This document shows positions 4,581 to 32,973 of a stretch of DNA of 33,184 nt, piece by piece (position 1 is the first letter of the stretch; the number at the start of each line of letters is the position of its first letter). Position numbers and translations under genes: made by a program. The notes under the pieces were generated by a model that was not told where the DNA came from, ran no database searches, and saw nothing but the letters and a program-made list of their open reading frames with translations. The stretch spans positions 1 to 33,184 of the forward strand of contig NZ_PDZH01000048.1 of the NCBI RefSeq assembly GCF_002735695.1. Direction: 5' to 3'. The stretch is from Chitinimonas sp. BJB300 (GTDB lineage Bacteria; Pseudomonadota; Gammaproteobacteria; Burkholderiales; Chitinimonadaceae).

Positions 4581-4721
4581 AGAACCTGTCTAAAGTCTGC
4601 TGCGCGTCGGCAATATGGCGTGAAAACTTTCTCGAAATGCTCATTTACCCTGTGTAAACTCCGCTTCCTCGGCGGTTTTCGCCTTATCTTGCCTTAGCTC
4701 GCGAGACTTTAGGCAGGTTCT
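4581..4721 (+). repeat. Dispersed repeat copy C (whole, 141 bp)
   Basis: A complete element in the same orientation as copy B: AGAACCTGTCTAAAGTCTGC at the left, GCGTCGGCAATATGGCG, central CTCATTTACC...GTAAACTCCG, then CTTAGCTCGCGAGACTTTAG and CAGGTTCT at the right. Flanks GGCTT and TAGG match copy B. Read on the minus strand, its right 35 bases encode the last residues and the stop codon of the DUF3025 gene. Confidence 0.92.
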
Positions 4722-5496
4722 TAGGACGAAAGTGCTGTGTGTCCGCATAGAAAGCCACATTCTGTACGGGCCACCAGCCTGGTATACCCAACACCGGTAG
4801 TGGCGGCAGGGCACGCGGTTCACGCAACTGGCCAGCACCAATGCGCTGTGCAAGTTCACTATCAAGTTCGGCGATCTGTTGCACCAGTGGCAGATCAAAC
4901 CAGCCAGTAGGGACTTCGACCACGACGACTTTGGCGACAATGCCAATAAAAGGGGCCAAGCCTTTTTCCTGTAATGCATGACCAAAACAATAAGCTGCCA
5001 GTTGTCGGCTCCAATCGGCCCGGCGTACTTGGAACAGTGTTTTCCAGTCGTGGTTGTGTAGAGCCTGAACCAAGTCGGGGGCGGCGCAAGCTAGCACCAG
5101 TCCCGATTCATCAAATAACGTAGCTGCATCACGTGCTCTGTTGCGCTGGCCTGTGCTGCTTTGAGATAGCTCGTGCAGATGCTGGCCATTCAAAGCGGCT
5201 TTGCTCTTTGGCCAACCTAACCAGCATAGTGCGTTAAAGCAGTCGTGCCAGTTATCGGGGCGTGTCGCGACTTCGCCGCTTTGCGCAATGCGTAGTTCAT
5301 AGCCTTGTTCATCCAACTGACTTGGAGAGACAAAACGAACGGTTTGCCCCGACTGGGTAATCGGTAGCAGGTCTGCCGGAAGGCTGGCCCAGGTTGCTGC
5401 TGTGGGGAACTGCCGCCAGCCAAGCGTGCGCAAGGCAGGCAGTAGGGGCGTAAACCAAGGAGAGTGATGCAGCAGATCGGTGGGCCAGGACAGCAT
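4684..5496 (-). CDS. DUF3025 family protein with repeat-encoded C-terminus
   Basis: A 270-residue protein of the DUF3025 family, recognised from the block DNWHDCFNALCWLGWPKSK (about residues 80-99) followed by LNGQHLHEL and the acidic-His DAATLFDESGLVLA segment. The family has no established biochemical function, and the protein looks soluble. The last 12 or so residues (KNLPKVSRAKAR) and the TAA are translated from repeat copy C, so the original terminus was probably replaced when the element arrived. No strong ribosome binding site precedes the ATG. It faces away from both neighbours and sits between copy C and a palindromic repeat scar, suggesting a locus reshaped by the element. Confidence 0.82.
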   Translation of the reverse strand: MLSWPTDLLHHSPWFTPLLPALRTLGWRQFPTAATWASLPADLLPITQSGQTVRFVSPSQLDEQGYELRIAQSGEVATRPDNWHDCFNALCWLGWPKSKAALNGQHLHELSQSSTGQRNRARDAATLFDESGLVLACAAPDLVQALHNHDWKTLFQVRRADWSRQLAAYCFGHALQEKGLAPFIGIVAKVVVVEVPTGWFDLPLVQQIAELDSELAQRIGAGQLREPRALPPLPVLGIPGWWPVQNVAFYADTQHFRPKNLPKVSRAKAR

Positions 5497-6742: not shown

Positions 6743-7690
6743 ATGGAAAACAATCAAATCTTGCCGGATGAACTGGCCGCGATGGCTGTCTTCGCTACGG
6801 TAGTGGAAGCGGGTAGCCTCACATTGGCGGCAGAACGGTTGCAACTGTCCAAGTCAGCGGTGAGCAAAAGTCTGGCGTGGCTGGAGCGAAAACTTGCTGC
6901 ACGGCTATTGCAGCGTACTACCCGGCGTCAGTCGCTTACCGAGGTTGGTCAAGTCTATTTCGAGCATTGCCGGCGCATGCTTGTCGAAGCAGGCGAGGCC
7001 CGGCAGGCGGTGGACCGTTTGCATGCCGAACCCGTTGGCGTGCTGCGTGTCTCGGCGCCGGTAAGCTTTGGCAGCCAACATGTCGCGCCCTTATTACCCG
7101 AGTTGCTCGCACGTTACCCCACGTTGCAAATTGACTTGGTGTTGAATGACCGTTTGGTTGATTTGGCTGAGGAGGGCTTTGACGTGGCAGTACGGGTTAG
7201 CGATCAACCCGCGGATTTGCTGGTGGCACGGACCTTGGCGCCCATACGCTGGGTGATATGCGCCAGTCCAGCTTATCTGGCACGCTGCGGAACACCAGAG
7301 CGGCCGCAAGACCTCGCCCGGCACGCCTGCCTCACTTATCCACTATTAACACCCACCGGCGTATGGCCATTTATTCAGGACGGCCAACGGATTGCCGTAC
7401 CGGTGCAGGGGCCGCTGCGAACCAATAGCAGTGTTGCGTTGATGGCGGCTTGCGTAGGCGGGCTGGGCTTGACACGGCTTCCTACCTTCAGCTGTGGCTG
7501 CTTACTCACCAGTGGAGAGCTGGTACCGGTTTTGCAGGACTACGTCGTCTCTCCCCAGACTGCGATGGCGGTCTATTTACCGAATCGTTATCTGTTGCCC
7601 AAGTTATGGGCATTTATCGAATTCATGCGTGAACGAATGGGTGCGGGTCAAACACCCTATTGGGATGCTTGGTTATCGGCAAAGTCGTGA
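6743..7690 (+). CDS. LysR-family transcriptional regulator
   Basis: A 315-residue LysR-type regulator. The N-terminal winged helix-turn-helix covers about residues 1-65 (MAVFATVVEAGSLTLAAERL, SKSAVSKSLAWLERKLAARL), followed by a linker helix and a periplasmic-binding-protein-like effector domain starting near LRVSAPVSFG. The subtype resembles CrgA/AaeR-like regulators that control divergent oxidoreductase genes. ATG 6743 was preferred to the TTG codons at 6734 and 6737, which add only three residues. It probably controls the divergent dehydrogenase gene and itself through the palindrome at 6705-6720; the inducer cannot be told from sequence. Confidence 0.92.
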   Translation: MENNQILPDELAAMAVFATVVEAGSLTLAAERLQLSKSAVSKSLAWLERKLAARLLQRTTRRQSLTEVGQVYFEHCRRMLVEAGEARQAVDRLHAEPVGVLRVSAPVSFGSQHVAPLLPELLARYPTLQIDLVLNDRLVDLAEEGFDVAVRVSDQPADLLVARTLAPIRWVICASPAYLARCGTPERPQDLARHACLTYPLLTPTGVWPFIQDGQRIAVPVQGPLRTNSSVALMAACVGGLGLTRLPTFSCGCLLTSGELVPVLQDYVVSPQTAMAVYLPNRYLLPKLWAFIEFMRERMGAGQTPYWDAWLSAKS

Positions 7691-7740
7691 TCTAGTAGAA
7701 GTTATGGATGAATTGAGACAGTAAAGGTGAAAACATTGCA

Positions 7741-8148
7741 GTGAACGAAACGAATATTCCAAAGTTGATTAAGTTACATCGATTAGCTGTTTGGGTAGCG
7801 ATAGCCAGCTTTGTCAGCATGTGTACGCATATTTATGCCAGTTTGGCGGTGCTGCCAATTCAACTTTACTGTGTGGTACGGATAAGTCGGGAGATAAAAC
7901 TAAGGTGGTGGGGACAGGTTGTGTATGTTCTTCTGACATTGATACCTGTTGTAAGTACTTTGGCAATGCTTTCACTCAGCAATAAAGCAGCCCAGCTCTT
8001 GAAACATGCAGGAGTACCAATGGGCCCTATGGGTTTCAAGGCAGGGGAGGCTGAGAAGGTGAATTATTCGATGGTGTTTCTACGGGCAGCAGATGCTAAA
8101 GACACAACTAAGGAGTCTGATACTTCTAGCGACGAGCTTAAACAATAA
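7741..8148 (+). CDS. Small membrane protein of unknown function
   Basis: I do not recognise this 135-residue protein. It has two to three hydrophobic segments (about 14-35, 55-78) separated by a short basic loop (RISREIKLRWWG), then a polar, charged tail ending in KDTTKESDTSSDELKQ. The layout suggests an inner-membrane protein with a cytoplasmic tail. It starts at GTG 7741 with AAAGGTG upstream at moderate distance. Its stop codon is inside the rising arm of the terminator at 8147-8173. Base composition is more AT-rich than in the neighbours, which may mean a more recent arrival. It follows the LysR gene by 50 nt on the same strand. Confidence 0.65.
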   Translation: MNETNIPKLIKLHRLAVWVAIASFVSMCTHIYASLAVLPIQLYCVVRISREIKLRWWGQVVYVLLTLIPVVSTLAMLSLSNKAAQLLKHAGVPMGPMGFKAGEAEKVNYSMVFLRAADAKDTTKESDTSSDELKQ

Positions 8149-8173
8149 AAAGCCGCCAAATTGGCGGCTTTTT
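8147..8173. terminator. Bidirectional terminator between converging genes
   Basis: AAAAAGCCGCC (8147-8157) pairs perfectly with GGCGGCTTTTT (8163-8173) across an AAATT loop. The A-run and T-run on the two sides make it a good intrinsic terminator for both the membrane-protein gene (plus) and tpx (minus). Confidence 0.9.
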
Positions 8174-8187
8174 GTATGACTGCTGCC

Positions 8188-8688
8188 TTATTTCAAAGCG
8201 GCAATAGCAGCTTCGTAATTGGGTTCATCTTTGATTTCAGCAACCAGTTCACTGTGGATGACCTTGTTTTTTTCATCGAGTACGACCACGGCGCGCGCTG
8301 TTACACCAGCCAATGGGCCACCAGCAATATCCACACCGTAGTTACGGATGAATTCACGGCCACGCATGGTGGACAGCGTGACGACATTGGTCAGGCCTTC
8401 GGCACCGCAGAAGCGCTTTTGGGCGAATGGCAGGTCAGCCGAAATGCACAACACCACGGTATTGGGGAGTTTGTCGGCTTGGGCGTTGAACTTGCGCGTC
8501 GAGGTGGCGCAAGTAGGGGTGTCGATGCTTGGGAAGATATTCAACACTTTGCGCTTGCCAGCATAGTTTTCCAGCGTGATATCGCCTAGGTCTGCATTGA
8601 CCAAGGCGAAGTCGGGGGCTGTGCTGCCAACCGCTGGAAAACTGCCGTTTACGGGAATAGGATTGCCGCCGAGGGTAACGGTAGACAT
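8188..8688 (-). CDS. tpx: Thiol peroxidase (atypical 2-Cys peroxiredoxin)
   Basis: A 166-residue thiol peroxidase, the usual length for Tpx. The peroxidatic Cys60 lies in IDTPTCATS with Thr57 beside it, the resolving Cys94 in KRFCGAEG, and the active-site Arg132 in VTARAVV. The enzyme reduces hydroperoxides, mainly alkyl ones, using thioredoxin, forming a Cys60-Cys94 disulphide in each cycle. I chose ATG 8688, which begins MSTVTLGGN as in the family and has GGAG upstream; a frame from 8700 adds four residues. It lies downstream of a paralogue lacking these residues, with a hairpin in the gap. Confidence 0.96.
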
Positions 8689-8716
8689 GAAATGCTCCAA
8701 TTTTTGGGGTTAAAAA

Positions 8717-8746
8717 ACACCATTCCCGCTTGCGCAGGAATGGTGT
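8717..8746 (-). terminator. Hairpin with U-tract between the tpx paralogues
   Basis: ACACCATTCC (8717-8726) pairs perfectly with GGAATGGTGT (8737-8746). On the minus strand the stem is followed by TTTTTTAA, so it has the form of an intrinsic terminator for the upstream Tpx-like gene. Its U-run ends only about 23 nt before the tpx start codon, so it may act as an attenuator or partial terminator within a two-gene transcript. Confidence 0.75.
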
Positions 8747-8778
8747 CGAGGGTTCTTCCGGACGGAGTGAAACGTTAC

Positions 8779-9303
8779 TTAGTTGGCTGCAGCCGCAGCA
8801 GCTGCCAACATGGCTTCGGCCAATTTTTCGTAGTTAGGTTCCGAGTTCACATCCAGTACCAGTTCGGAATACAACACATTGTCGTCTGTATCGAGGCCAA
8901 ACAGCGCTGTTGCCATCATGCCTGACAAAGGAATATCGGTGATCATCACACCGTAATCCTTATGGAAATCACGCCCTCGCATGGTGGAGAGCAGCTGTAC
9001 CTTGCGCATGCCTTCAGTCGCCATCACCCGCCCCAGCGCATAGGGTGTATCGATCGAAACCACAAAGCACTTGGCGTTGGGAAAGCCATCCGCAATCGTC
9101 TCAAGTCTGCGGGCAATCTTCAGACCTATCTCCGCATCGACGCTCGGAACGACGGCAATGACTTTGCGTCGTCCGATGAATTTGGCAAGGGGTACATCGC
9201 CCAAGTTGGTGTCGACCAGCATGAAGCTCGGCGCGTTATCGCCGACGCGGGGAAAACGGCCACCCACACCAAGGGGTTCGCCGTTCAGTAGCACAGTGGC
9301 CAT
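8779..9303 (-). CDS. Tpx-like protein lacking all catalytic residues
   Basis: A 174-residue protein that aligns with the neighbouring Tpx without any gap over about 165 residues, sharing FPxVGxxAPxF, LGD, GxRKV, PSxD, LSTMRGRxF and SELVxxxxxEPNYE. At the positions that do chemistry it differs: Thr57 is Ala, Cys60 is Gly, Cys94 is Met and Arg132 is Thr. Its only Cys is at 79, on a buried strand in the family. The frame is intact and has a strong ribosome binding site (GGAGGA), so it looks like a maintained protein and not a decaying gene. The C-terminus is a run of alanines followed by Asn. It cannot work as a normal peroxiredoxin; it might partner or regulate Tpx, or bind a peroxide or another ligand. 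Annotation pipelines would probably call it thiol peroxidase by similarity. Confidence 0.9.
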   Translation of the reverse strand: MATVLLNGEPLGVGGRFPRVGDNAPSFMLVDTNLGDVPLAKFIGRRKVIAVVPSVDAEIGLKIARRLETIADGFPNAKCFVVSIDTPYALGRVMATEGMRKVQLLSTMRGRDFHKDYGVMITDIPLSGMMATALFGLDTDDNVLYSELVLDVNSEPNYEKLAEAMLAAAAAAAN

Positions 9304-9472
9304 GTCTTGTATCCTCCGGTTAATTGCCTTTGCAGTATTGACAGCCGCGAGGCTGAAAGCAAGGTGGCGTCTGGTTCAAGAGGCTTAAACAGATTCAAAT
9401 TACTTGTTCACTGTGTCTACTGCCCGTTGCTTGCTGGAATACTTGCGGCCGGTGGGGCTAGGGAATAAGAAG

Positions 9473-10777
9473 TCAGTTCGACTGTGGGTAGAACCAGTAC
9501 AGGGAATAGCCGCTTGACTTCATTGTTCCCAGATCAAGCTGTAGAAAGACGCGCAAATCGGTGCCGGCGCCTAAGGAGGTGGGAAGTGGGGCGGGTTGGC
9601 CGTCGGCTTGTGGGGCGATGTATTGGTCAGGATTAAATACCTTGCGCGCAACAATGCGGTCGTTGTCATCGGTCAGCGTCAATTCCAATAGCGGTAGCGC
9701 TTGCGCAAAACTGGCTTGGTTACGCAATGTGGCATTCAGTTGGATCAGGCTTGAATGATCGGCCACATAGGTGAGTTCATTCCATTCTGTCCGTAAAAGC
9801 TCTGCTCTGGCTGGTAATTCCAGCGTGCAGCCCACTTGCGCACAGAAGCGCTCCAGCTTGGGCTCGATACCAGGAAGTTGGACGGCTATCTCGGTACGAT
9901 AGCGTAAGGTGAACTGGCCTATCAGGGCGATCAGCGCCAACAGGGCCGGGATGCTCCATAACCAGCGCCATGGCGAGGGCGCATTGGGAACCCGTAGAAG
10001 TGCTTCGTCCTCTTCTGTCAGGATAGGACGATAGTCATGGGGGTGCTCTGGCCTGACGGTATGGCTGGTAACCATGGCGGCACTAGCGGGAACGAGGGTA
10101 GGGGCCAATGCGGCAGACAGACGCGCTTCGGTTTCCTGGTTCACATGTTGTGTCCAACGCTCAAACGCTTCGGGCGATATATCGTCGTTTGAGCCGACCG
10201 CCGTAATCTCGATCGTTTGCTCCTCCTGTTCTGCTGGTTCTGCGGGCTCATCTTCCGGAGGAGCAGTGGGGGAGGCAGCAGGAGGAGTAGCAGCAGGTGC
10301 CGGTGTTGGAGTAGGCGGGAACTTGCCTGGTGAAGTATCTAGCCCCTCCAGCGTCGGGAAACCCAGCGTGGGTTCTCGTTTGCCCAGATTACCGGATTTG
10401 TACTGCGCGGGTTCTGGCGTGATGGGGGGAATACTGGCGTGTTGCAGTTTAGGATGGACTGCTGCGGGTAGTTGGTCTTCGGTATCCGGCTTGTCGGCGG
10501 TTTCCAGCATGCTGGCCATATTGACCAAGCCATGCCCGGCCGCTTCGGCGTGGACCTGTTCCTGTGGTGCGGGCGGTTGTGCAGGCTCTGCCGAGACTGG
10601 CGTTTCTGTCACTGCCGATTTGATTGCTTCCTTTTGCGCATCGCCAACAAAATGCGTGCGCGCATCGAAAACAAACGCACAGCGACCGCAGCGCACCTTA
10701 CCGTCAAAAGCGGTCAGGTGGGCGTCGGTAACGCGAAAACTGGTGCGGCAATTAGGGCAGCGCGTAACGTGGTACAT
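9473..10777 (-). CDS. Zinc-ribbon (MJ0042) and DUF3426 membrane protein
   Basis: A 434-residue protein found after prmA in many betaproteobacteria. The N-terminus is an MJ0042-type zinc ribbon with Cys7, Cys10, Cys30 and Cys33. A long Pro/Ala/Glu-rich linker (about 45-260) follows, then one membrane span (about 270-290, WLWSIPALLALIALIGQFTL) and a C-terminal DUF3426 domain that would lie in the periplasm (LNATLRNQASFAQALPLLEL...). No activity is established; the architecture suggests a cytoplasmic metal-binding or sensing head joined to a periplasmic domain. It starts 39 nt downstream of prmA and is probably in the same transcript. Confidence 0.88.
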   Translation of the reverse strand: MYHVTRCPNCRTSFRVTDAHLTAFDGKVRCGRCAFVFDARTHFVGDAQKEAIKSAVTETPVSAEPAQPPAPQEQVHAEAAGHGLVNMASMLETADKPDTEDQLPAAVHPKLQHASIPPITPEPAQYKSGNLGKREPTLGFPTLEGLDTSPGKFPPTPTPAPAATPPAASPTAPPEDEPAEPAEQEEQTIEITAVGSNDDISPEAFERWTQHVNQETEARLSAALAPTLVPASAAMVTSHTVRPEHPHDYRPILTEEDEALLRVPNAPSPWRWLWSIPALLALIALIGQFTLRYRTEIAVQLPGIEPKLERFCAQVGCTLELPARAELLRTEWNELTYVADHSSLIQLNATLRNQASFAQALPLLELTLTDDNDRIVARKVFNPDQYIAPQADGQPAPLPTSLGAGTDLRVFLQLDLGTMKSSGYSLYWFYPQSN

Positions 10778-10816: not shown

Positions 10817-11701
10817 TTACTTGCGTATACCTGCAATACGTACCCAACCTTCGCGTTCTGCAGACACGCTCAACGTGAAGTTTGGGGCATAGATAGCAAT
10901 AATATCGTCGGCTTGTTCGGCCAGGATACCCGATAGCACCAGACGACCACCAATATGGCAGCGACTGGCCAATAGCGGCATCAGCATCTTGAGCGGGTTG
11001 GTCAGGATATTGGCGAAGACGAGGTCGTAAGTTTGTTCTGGCGCGGAGTCGGGCAAGAAAAAGCGCGCCTGCACATGGTTTTGCTCGGCATTCTGTTGGC
11101 TGGCGACCATGGCCTGGCTGTCGATATCCACACCGTGTACTTCACCTGCCCCCAGCAGCTTGGCTGCAATGGCCAGGATGCCGGATCCACAGCCGTAATC
11201 AAGTACGCTTTCCCCGGCCTTTACTTCAGCGTCGAGCCACTGTAAACATAACCAGGTGGTGGGGTGGCTGCCAGTACCAAACGCGAGGCCAGGGTCCAGG
11301 GCGATATTGATTGCATTGGCGGTTTGCACATGCCATGTGGGGGTGATCCACAGTCGGTCCGACACTTGGATGGGGTCAAATTGTGATTGGGTCAGCCGCA
11401 CCCAGTCCTGTTCCTCCACCCGGCTTACCGTGTGTACGGGTGGGGTTATCCCAACCACATTGGCAGCGCCCGTTACCATTACCTCGGCATCACTGTGCTC
11501 TTCCAGCAGCACGACCACGACGCTTTCATCCCATAGCTGTTCCAATGGCATGCCGGGTTCGCCGAATATGGGTTTTTCCATTTCGGTGCCGGCAGTGGCA
11601 TCTTCAATGCTGACGCTGAGCGCCCCTAGGTCGAGCAGCGCATCCGACAGGGCTTCGGCATGAGTGGAATTGGCATGGATACGTAGTTCTTGCCAGGGCA
11701 T
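10817..11701 (-). CDS. prmA: Ribosomal protein L11 methyltransferase
   Basis: A 294-residue SAM-dependent methyltransferase that trimethylates lysines and the N-terminus of ribosomal protein L11. The N-terminal substrate-recognition domain (about 1-60) begins MPWQELRIHA as in the family, and the catalytic domain has the SAM-binding LDYGCGSGILAIAA motif and the ANILTNPL motif IV. I chose ATG 11701, preceded by GGAG at a normal distance and giving the family's usual length (about 293); a start at 11728 adds nine residues. It follows accC by 140 nt, with a strong hairpin between. Confidence 0.95.
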   Translation of the reverse strand: MPWQELRIHANSTHAEALSDALLDLGALSVSIEDATAGTEMEKPIFGEPGMPLEQLWDESVVVVLLEEHSDAEVMVTGAANVVGITPPVHTVSRVEEQDWVRLTQSQFDPIQVSDRLWITPTWHVQTANAINIALDPGLAFGTGSHPTTWLCLQWLDAEVKAGESVLDYGCGSGILAIAAKLLGAGEVHGVDIDSQAMVASQQNAEQNHVQARFFLPDSAPEQTYDLVFANILTNPLKMLMPLLASRCHIGGRLVLSGILAEQADDIIAIYAPNFTLSVSAEREGWVRIAGIRK

Positions 11702-11728
11702 GGCGGACTCCGGGAGAGAAAAAGACAA

Positions 11729-32379: not shown

Positions 32380-32973
32380 ATGCGTCGATCCATTATTACC
32401 GCTACCCTGTTGGGGTTGTTGCTGGGCCTGACCAGTTGCAGCCAACAGCCCAAGCCGGCTTTTCAATCCACCGATGTCACTGGTGCGCCTATTGGGGGTG
32501 AGTTCCGTCTGACCGGTCATGATGGCAAGCCACGGAATCTTTCCGATTTCAAGGGCAAGGCGGTAGTGCTGTTTTTTGGCTTTACCCATTGTCCAGATGT
32601 CTGCCCGACAACGATGAGTGAGCTGGCGATTGCCATGAAGCAGCTGGGGGAAAAAGCGAACCAAGTGCAGGTGTTGTTCGTCAGCGTTGACCCAGAGCGT
32701 GATACGCCAGCCTTGTTGAGCCAATATGTACCCGCATTTAATCCCAGCTTTCTCGGGCTTACCGGCACCCAGGCTGAAATACGCACGGTGGCGGATAAAT
32801 TCAAGATTGTTTATCAGAAGTCGGCAGCGAATGGTTCGGGCGGTACCAGCAGCTATACGGTCGACCATAGCGCTGGTTCATATATTCTTGATAAACAGGG
32901 CCAATTGAGGCTATTCGTCAACTATGGTGCGGGTAGTTCTGTGTTTGCACACGATTTAGCACTATTACTCTAG
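32380..32973 (+). CDS. SCO1/SenC copper chaperone lipoprotein
   Basis: A 197-residue Sco protein that delivers copper to, or reduces, the CuA site of subunit II. A lipoprotein signal (LLLGLTSC, lipidated Cys20) would anchor it to the membrane. The thioredoxin-fold domain has the copper ligands Cys71 and Cys75 in THCPDVCPTT and His163 in TVDHSAGSY, plus the SVDPERDTP block. The start is 4 nt after the ctaB stop; the long open frame upstream (from 32104) overlaps ctaB and is not the start. No strong ribosome binding site is visible, suggesting coupling to ctaB. Confidence 0.95.
   Translation: MRRSIITATLLGLLLGLTSCSQQPKPAFQSTDVTGAPIGGEFRLTGHDGKPRNLSDFKGKAVVLFFGFTHCPDVCPTTMSELAIAMKQLGEKANQVQVLFVSVDPERDTPALLSQYVPAFNPSFLGLTGTQAEIRTVADKFKIVYQKSAANGSGGTSSYTVDHSAGSYILDKQGQLRLFVNYGAGSSVFAHDLALLL

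Follow-up and report, generated by a model that had tools for sequence, protein, structure and literature searches.

A conserved group of thiol-free Tpx-like proteins encoded beside tpx in Chitinimonas and its relatives

The locus and the missing catalytic residues

The window analysed here is the whole 33,184-nucleotide stretch of contig NZ_PDZH01000048.1 from Chitinimonas sp. BJB300. On its reverse strand, a canonical thiol peroxidase gene (tpx) is preceded by a gene for a Tpx-like protein without the catalytic thiols, here called psiTpx (Table 1). The preliminary description of this gene had reported an intact frame and a strong ribosome binding site, and both were borne out: the 174-residue frame opens with ATG, and GGAGGA lies 8 nt 5' of it. 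GGAG, AGGA or GAGG is found 4–17 nt 5' of the start in 40 of the 49 distinct orthologues. The Pfam Redoxin model matches psiTpx at 38.4 bits (cut-off 26.6). A second, weak Redoxin match (27.2 bits, same cut-off) was met elsewhere in the window, at 32500–32694 on the forward strand, in a 290-codon open frame.

Table 1. Features of the window around psiTpx (residues in psiTpx numbering)
Feature	Position	Strand	Basis or orthologue counts
psiTpx, thiol-free Tpx-like protein, 174 aa, intact frame	8779..9303	-	ORF, homology
Ribosome binding site GGAGGA, 8 nt ahead of the psiTpx ATG	9312..9317	-	sequence
psiTpx codon 57, Ala for catalytic Thr	9133..9135	-	A 38, S 9, T 2 (n=49)
psiTpx codon 60, Gly for peroxidatic Cys	9124..9126	-	Gly in 49/49 orthologues and 53/53 second-lineage sequences
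psiTpx codon 94, Met for resolving Cys	9022..9024	-	variable; Cys 0/49
psiTpx codons 105-128, most conserved part; holds Arg109 and loop 124-128	8920..8991	-	entropy
psiTpx codon 132, Thr for active-site Arg	8908..8910	-	Thr 48, Ser 1 (n=49)
14-bp hairpin followed by a T run in the psiTpx-tpx spacer, terminator-like	8716..8747	-	own scan
tpx, canonical thiol peroxidase (T57, C60, C94, R132)	8188..8688	-	NF001808 250.9 bits
DUF3025 protein; many relatives have it downstream of tpx or the catalytic sister gene	4684..5496	-	Pfam DUF3025 244.6 bits
Zinc-ribbon/DUF3426 protein, conserved upstream neighbour	9473..10777	-	Pfam DUF3426 127.3 bits, synteny
prmA, ribosomal protein L11 methyltransferase	10817..11728	-	Pfam PrmA 306.1 bits, synteny

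psiTpx and the adjacent Tpx align with 42% identity and without internal gaps. The pairwise alignment reproduces all four substitutions that had been described in the window's protein (Thr57 to Ala, Cys60 to Gly, Cys94 to Met and Arg132 to Thr). The peroxidatic Cys of the PxxxTxxC motif is absent from the window's psiTpx and from all 49 distinct orthologues, and the resolving Cys of helix 3 is absent as well. Catalytic Tpx proteins are nearly uniform at these positions: among 125 distinct sequences, Thr57 occurs in 125, Cys60 in 125, Cys94 in 124 and Arg132 in 125. The two classes were assigned by residue 60, where no third residue occurs, so the counts for Cys60 and Gly60 hold by construction. 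Homologues with both Gly60 and Met94 had been suggested as a check; Gly60 is indeed found in 49/49, whereas residue 94 varies, with Met in 8 (I 11, A 6, V 6, G 5, L 5, others fewer). The claim that every catalytic residue has been lost likewise holds across the orthologues for Cys60, Cys94 and Arg132 and fails for residue 57, where two sequences retain Thr. A replacement thiol elsewhere in the protein is ruled out, since no Cys is conserved among the 49 distinct sequences: the best Cys column is filled in 12/49, and 33/49 have no Cys at all.

The arrangement of the two genes is widely shared. psiTpx lies directly upstream of tpx on the same strand, with a gap of 16–451 nt, at 47 of the 49 distinct loci in three families; at three loci of family f32 the gap is only 16–17 nt. 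Terminator-like hairpins were found in 17/47 of these spacers by our own scan, which had no chance control, and none lies in the very short spacers of the three f32 loci. A packaged terminator scan of positions 7600–9600 did not list the hairpin of the window; it returned two other sites, both at chance level. Wherever the flank is long enough, the gene order is prmA-DUF3426-psiTpx-tpx. DUF3426 stands upstream of psiTpx at 20 of the 21 distinct loci with enough flank; the exception is genome G778, in which psiTpx and tpx are 52 kb apart. DUF3025 follows further downstream at 17 of the 21 psiTpx loci compared. A catalytic tpx occupies the same place in family f14, where locus L163 reads prmA-DUF3426-tpx-DUF3025 and DUF3426 and DUF3025 flank the gene, one per side, at 3/3 loci. 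Among the other 48 Tpx loci, DUF3426 stands beside a catalytic Tpx in at least five, from five families; this is a lower bound because the flanks are short.

Distribution, constraint and a second thiol-free lineage

Orthologues of psiTpx were found in 50 of the 58 genomes of three related families: 10/10 in f1, 36/43 in f5 and 4/5 in f32. The family of the window is f1, whose member G007 has the sequence of Parachitinimonas caeni, and f5 holds sequences identical to records of Chitiniphilus, Deefgea and Iodobacter. All 50 orthologue sequences were read and each has Gly60; 49 are distinct and, with the 125 distinct catalytic Tpx, make up the deduplicated comparison set. Among 399 genomes sampled from the order, psiTpx matched in 24 at 289–325 bits, and the next score, 246 bits, belonged to a catalytic Tpx; as the search had a cut-off of E 1e-45 and its lower rows were read in part, more distant thiol-free forms could exist. 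In a sample of 369 genomes of the class, the 29 fetched matches beyond the window's own were all catalytic (28 from other orders, one from the same order). One Tpx from another order of the class (L096, genome G610) nests among Iodobacter-like neighbouring-Tpx genes in a quick tree and is possibly a case of horizontal transfer.

psiTpx is absent from seven f5 genomes, which comprise all three of genus g127 and all four of g136, and from the f32 genome G199 (86% complete); it is therefore dispensable. No convincing remnant was found at the eight loci (best E 0.12). The names accB, accC and gcvH used here are those that we take these genes to bear, judging from their sequences. In g127, a gcvH-like gene occupies the expected position of psiTpx, and in g136 no gene is there. 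Because g127 nests within f5 (99/95 for the set containing it, in a tree of prmA and accC), it must have lost psiTpx. The Tpx of G199 (L132, L160) is 80% identical to that of the window. Genome G164 (L159) belongs to the same genus and presents the reverse case: this assembly, 95% complete in 680 contigs, has the thiol-free protein and no detectable Tpx.

Other variants of Tpx were met in passing. Two Tpx-like proteins (L186, 1977–2660, reverse strand; L187, 1827–2498, forward strand) have an N-terminal signal-like extension and retain the peroxidatic Cys, while the resolving Cys appears to be replaced by Ala; they are perhaps exported 1-Cys forms. The Tpx of L166 (G166, f35) has the peroxidatic Cys and Arg132, and Arg replaces its resolving Cys.

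The orthologues are under purifying selection. Open frames are retained in 49/49, and the comparison of dN/dS across relatives, which had been proposed for the gene pair, gave medians of 0.08 for psiTpx and 0.06 for Tpx over 15 pairs with a psiTpx dS below 0.55 (Nei-Gojobori; the pairs are not independent). Over 155 pairs with dS of 0.05–1.2 in both genes, the medians are 0.25 and 0.22, values made unreliable by saturation. At the 47 paired loci, psiTpx is overall less conserved than Tpx (entropy 0.87 versus 0.66 bits; 55 versus 64 invariant columns of 165). The difference is largest around the old active site (residues 46–68, 0.67 versus 0.37) and in helix 3 (residues 83–104, 0.96 versus 0.36). 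The order is reversed slightly in residues 1–45 and most strongly in residues 105–134, with a mean entropy of 0.22 bits in psiTpx versus 0.58 in the neighbouring Tpx. Residues 111–123 and 125–128 are each identical in 49/49 psiTpx sequences, as are Pro53, Ser54, Asp56, Arg109, His114, Met120 and Met130. Constraint at the DNA level is not supported as the cause, because codon choice in the block is as free as elsewhere (synonymous variation 0.77 versus 0.72–0.85). The conservation of the block is partly inherited, as catalytic Tpx proteins of the same order share RGRDFHKDYGVMITD.

A sequence search of the PDB with psiTpx retrieved 3keb_A, whose entry is entitled ‘Thiol peroxidase from Chromobacterium violaceum’, was released on 2009-11-03 and contains four chains of the same sequence. 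This protein has Gly at the peroxidatic site, lacks the resolving Cys and Arg132, and retains LSTLRGRDFHKRYGVLITEYPLSG (trimmed query). When the 3keb stretch was used as a query, relatives were found in 11 of the 399 order genomes, all of family f27 (cut at E 1e-32), and in a 331-genome class sample only the psiTpx of the window was retrieved (cut at E 1e-20). Thiol-free sequences are present in 53 of the 61 f27 genomes; all were read, and Gly60, Pro132, Leu53 and the absence of Cys from both sites are each found in 53/53. The sequence of one of them (G817) equals that of 3keb exactly over the 142 aa compared. Together with the title of the entry, this match suggests that f27 corresponds to Chromobacteriaceae. 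The eight f27 genomes in which no thiol-free sequence was found are G799 (61% complete), G081, four of genus g432 and two of g434; they were searched with Tpx as the query, which very distant forms may escape. At one g432 locus (L267, G821), several Tpx-like pieces lie close together and some are broken.

The two lineages share the features of one class, namely Gly in place of the peroxidatic Cys, loss of the resolving Cys and the RGRDFH block, all of which psiTpx has, together with the absence of Arg132 and the retention of the longer LSTLRGRDFHK block and of the interface residues. Identity is about 37–45% over the aligned part. Unlike psiTpx, 3KEB and its relatives carry an insertion of one or two residues in the active-site loop, Leu53 and Pro132, a C-terminal extension and no EPNY tail, and their genes are unlinked to tpx. 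prmA and DUF3426 flank the thiol-free loci of f27 in 35/35 cases outside genus g64 and in 0/18 within it; in two g64 genomes, neither gene was found within about 5–6 kb. A Tpx-type match exists in 59 of the 61 f27 genomes, the match in G832 consisting of two pieces with a stop. In 52/52 genomes with both genes, these lie either on separate contigs or at a distance of more than 300 kb. One f27 genome (G831, locus L228, 99% complete) has the thiol-free protein alone, with no detectable Tpx.

psiTpx shows neither a broken frame nor relaxed constraint. Within the Tpx fold family it thus represents a genuine and conserved branch without thiols, not a product of decay. Selection for the fold without the chemistry, as first proposed, is thus supported by the open frames, the dN/dS of about 0.08 in close pairs, the conserved block 105–134 and the second lineage.

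Origin of the thiol-free proteins

The nearest catalytic relative of psiTpx is not the gene beside it but the Tpx of family f14 in the same gene slot. In a quick tree of 174 proteins, psiTpx forms one clade (support 100) beside three catalytic f14 Tpx (98), and the adjacent Tpx genes fall in a clade apart. A careful tree of 62 proteins, without 3KEB-like rows, unites psiTpx and the f14 proteins with 97/94. The grouping of psiTpx with the adjacent Tpx, as expected of a recent tandem duplication, was rejected (p-AU 0.0018). The implied origin, by copying of the neighbouring gene and later loss of the catalytic residues, was therefore not borne out, and the term paralogue is apt in a distant sense only. 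The three f14 proteins (L013, L065, L067) share with psiTpx the prmA-DUF3426-tpx-DUF3025 slot and up to 56% identity; unlike psiTpx, they retain Thr57, Cys60, Cys94 and Arg132.

When 3KEB-like rows are included, psiTpx and the 3KEB-like proteins fall on the same side of one branch with 100/100, and a group of psiTpx and f14 alone is neither supported nor rejected (AU p 0.2). A single origin of psiTpx and the 3KEB-like proteins is likely from these sequences rather than proven, because the 3KEB-like rows have a long branch and five of the eleven are odd in composition. A tree of prmA and accC from 34 loci groups f1, f5, f32, f14 and f27 (83/94) without resolving the order among them; with several rows long or half empty, one loss of the thiols and two cannot be told apart. 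The odds are about even for the broadest account, in which the tpx that occupied the prmA-DUF3426 slot became a binding protein without thiols that still uses the dimer face of Tpx, perhaps in a single event that predates the split of the Chitinibacteraceae-like and Chromobacteriaceae-like families. This would be a bacterial pseudoperoxidase family, found in 103 genomes that all belong to different species, and one of its crystal structures would have been filed as an enzyme since 2009.

Fold, dimer face and possible role

psiTpx belongs to the Tpx fold family by full-length homology and by a predicted thioredoxin fold of the Tpx type with the N-terminal hairpin. The predicted monomer has the Tpx fold (mean pLDDT 81.1, pTM 0.79), and its best structural matches in the PDB are Tpx structures, with a Foldseek TM of 0.85–0.90 to 2XPD. 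With the Tpx subfamily (NF001808; 2XPD, 3HVV, 4JE1) it shares homology over the whole length, the predicted fold and hairpin, the dimer-interface residues and, in most psiTpx, the EPNY tail. It differs in that both catalytic cysteines, peroxidatic and resolving, and the active-site Arg are missing, and its pocket carries a new fixed set of residues. In the Yersinia Tpx dimer, R110 contacts the main chain of G125, P126 and A128 and, in the oxidised form, D57 contacts R93 (PMC3288085). Yersinia numbering is that of the window plus one, so the equivalents here are residues 109, 124, 125, 127, 56 and 92. Asp56, Arg92, Arg109, Pro125, Leu126 and Gly128 are invariant in 49/49 psiTpx and 53/53 3KEB-like sequences, that is, in all 102 thiol-free proteins; position 124, which makes a main-chain contact only, is V, I or Y in psiTpx. 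Judged from these sequences, the residues of the dimer face have outlived the chemistry. The six positions are nearly invariant in catalytic Tpx too (120–125 of 125), so their conservation is inherited and is no proof of a dimer. Residues 120–129, mostly invariant, have a pLDDT below 50 in the psiTpx model versus about 86–90 in the model of the neighbouring Tpx; one reading of the models is that this loop may take its shape from a partner.

The residues for chemistry have been lost while the fold and the pairing surface have been kept, and psiTpx is for this reason probably a binding protein. We favour, with a probability of about 0.6, a long-lived pseudoperoxidase that would form a Tpx-type dimer and act by binding. 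On this view, the conserved prmA-DUF3426 slot once held a Tpx gene from which both catalytic cysteines and the active-site Arg disappeared, and which would have been retained for what its product binds. The protein would dimerise through the Tpx face, with Asp56 to Arg92 and Arg109 to loop 124–128. The near-invariant surface around LSTLRGRDFHKDYGVMITDxPLSG and the emptied active-site pocket may form a docking site for a protein or ligand other than, or beyond, Tpx. Sequence alone cannot tell apart a homodimer, a mixed dimer with Tpx and another partner. A role in oxidative-stress physiology is likely.

One point against a binding protein of this kind is the adjacency to tpx at 47/49 loci, which suggests some link to Tpx that it leaves unexplained. 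Its absence from eight genomes, the inherited state of the interface residues and in part of the conserved block, and the low-confidence loop 120–129 also weigh against it. The same adjacency to tpx is an argument for psiTpx as a dedicated regulator of Tpx, which would tune its activity, stability or redox signalling through mixed dimers. This is also favoured by the six interface positions common to psiTpx and nearly all Tpx, by the very short gaps in f32 and by a precedent among eukaryotic Prx1-type proteins, for which oligomers that combine different peroxiredoxins are reported (PMC13038412). We nevertheless hold it to be unlikely. Two assemblies, G164 and G831, have the thiol-free protein without a detectable Tpx, the genes are far apart in G778 and unlinked in f27, a terminator-like hairpin stands between the two genes of the window, and, at the threshold used, the seven f5 genomes that lack psiTpx have no alignment column that sets their Tpx apart. 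Pairing with Tpx, as suggested in the preliminary description, is possible in view of the gene order but is not favoured, and obligatory pairing is disfavoured.

The emptied pocket might instead serve a new thiol-less chemistry or hold a small ligand (e.g., a lipid hydroperoxide, fatty acid or metabolite), which would make psiTpx a sensor, a carrier or a non-thiol enzyme. The pocket residues are strongly fixed (Gly60, Thr86 and Tyr88 in 49/49; Ala50, Leu61, Leu67 and Thr132 in 48/49), and a fixed replaced pocket implies more than mere loss. His114, Lys115 and Asp116 are also present in 49/49, but catalytic Tpx from this order have them too, so they are inherited. The pocket of the second lineage is different (Leu53, Ser86, Pro132), and such a function for psiTpx appears quite improbable. 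Decay of the gene after its neighbour took over the Tpx function would suit the redundancy with tpx and the complete absence from two genera. It is scarcely credible against the intact frames, the low dN/dS, the fixed new residues and the 55 invariant columns of 165 at the paired loci; as a general account it is refuted, and only the losses in g127 and g136 fit it.

The NCBIfam equivalog model NF001808, ‘thiol peroxidase’, matches psiTpx with 146.1 bits at a cut-off of 123, and at E 0.001 it matches 22/22 members of alignment A2; the two members compared with the cut-off, the psiTpx of the window and L039 (123.7 bits), both exceed it. Automatic annotation therefore likely names psiTpx an enzyme, and the suspicion that name transfer hides the protein was confirmed. 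The error is systematic: a curated model labels psiTpx a thiol peroxidase despite its missing catalytic residues, and a thiol-free relative stands in the PDB under the same name. An NCBIfam model named ‘Prx-SUH’ also matches; a literature search for this name returned only a review of selenoproteins, and ‘3keb’ has no mention in the literature searched. Pseudoenzymes are already known; for this thiol-free branch of Tpx, no description was found among the literature matches listed, in which subscription journals are thinly covered.

Peroxiredoxins are thought to signal and to act as chaperones besides reducing peroxides. Since the thiol may be used in both capacities, one is not easily studied apart from the other. 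If the reading proposed here is true, psiTpx and its relatives would be a natural family that has discarded the thiol but retains the fold and the pairing-surface residues, and would thereby isolate a non-catalytic role.
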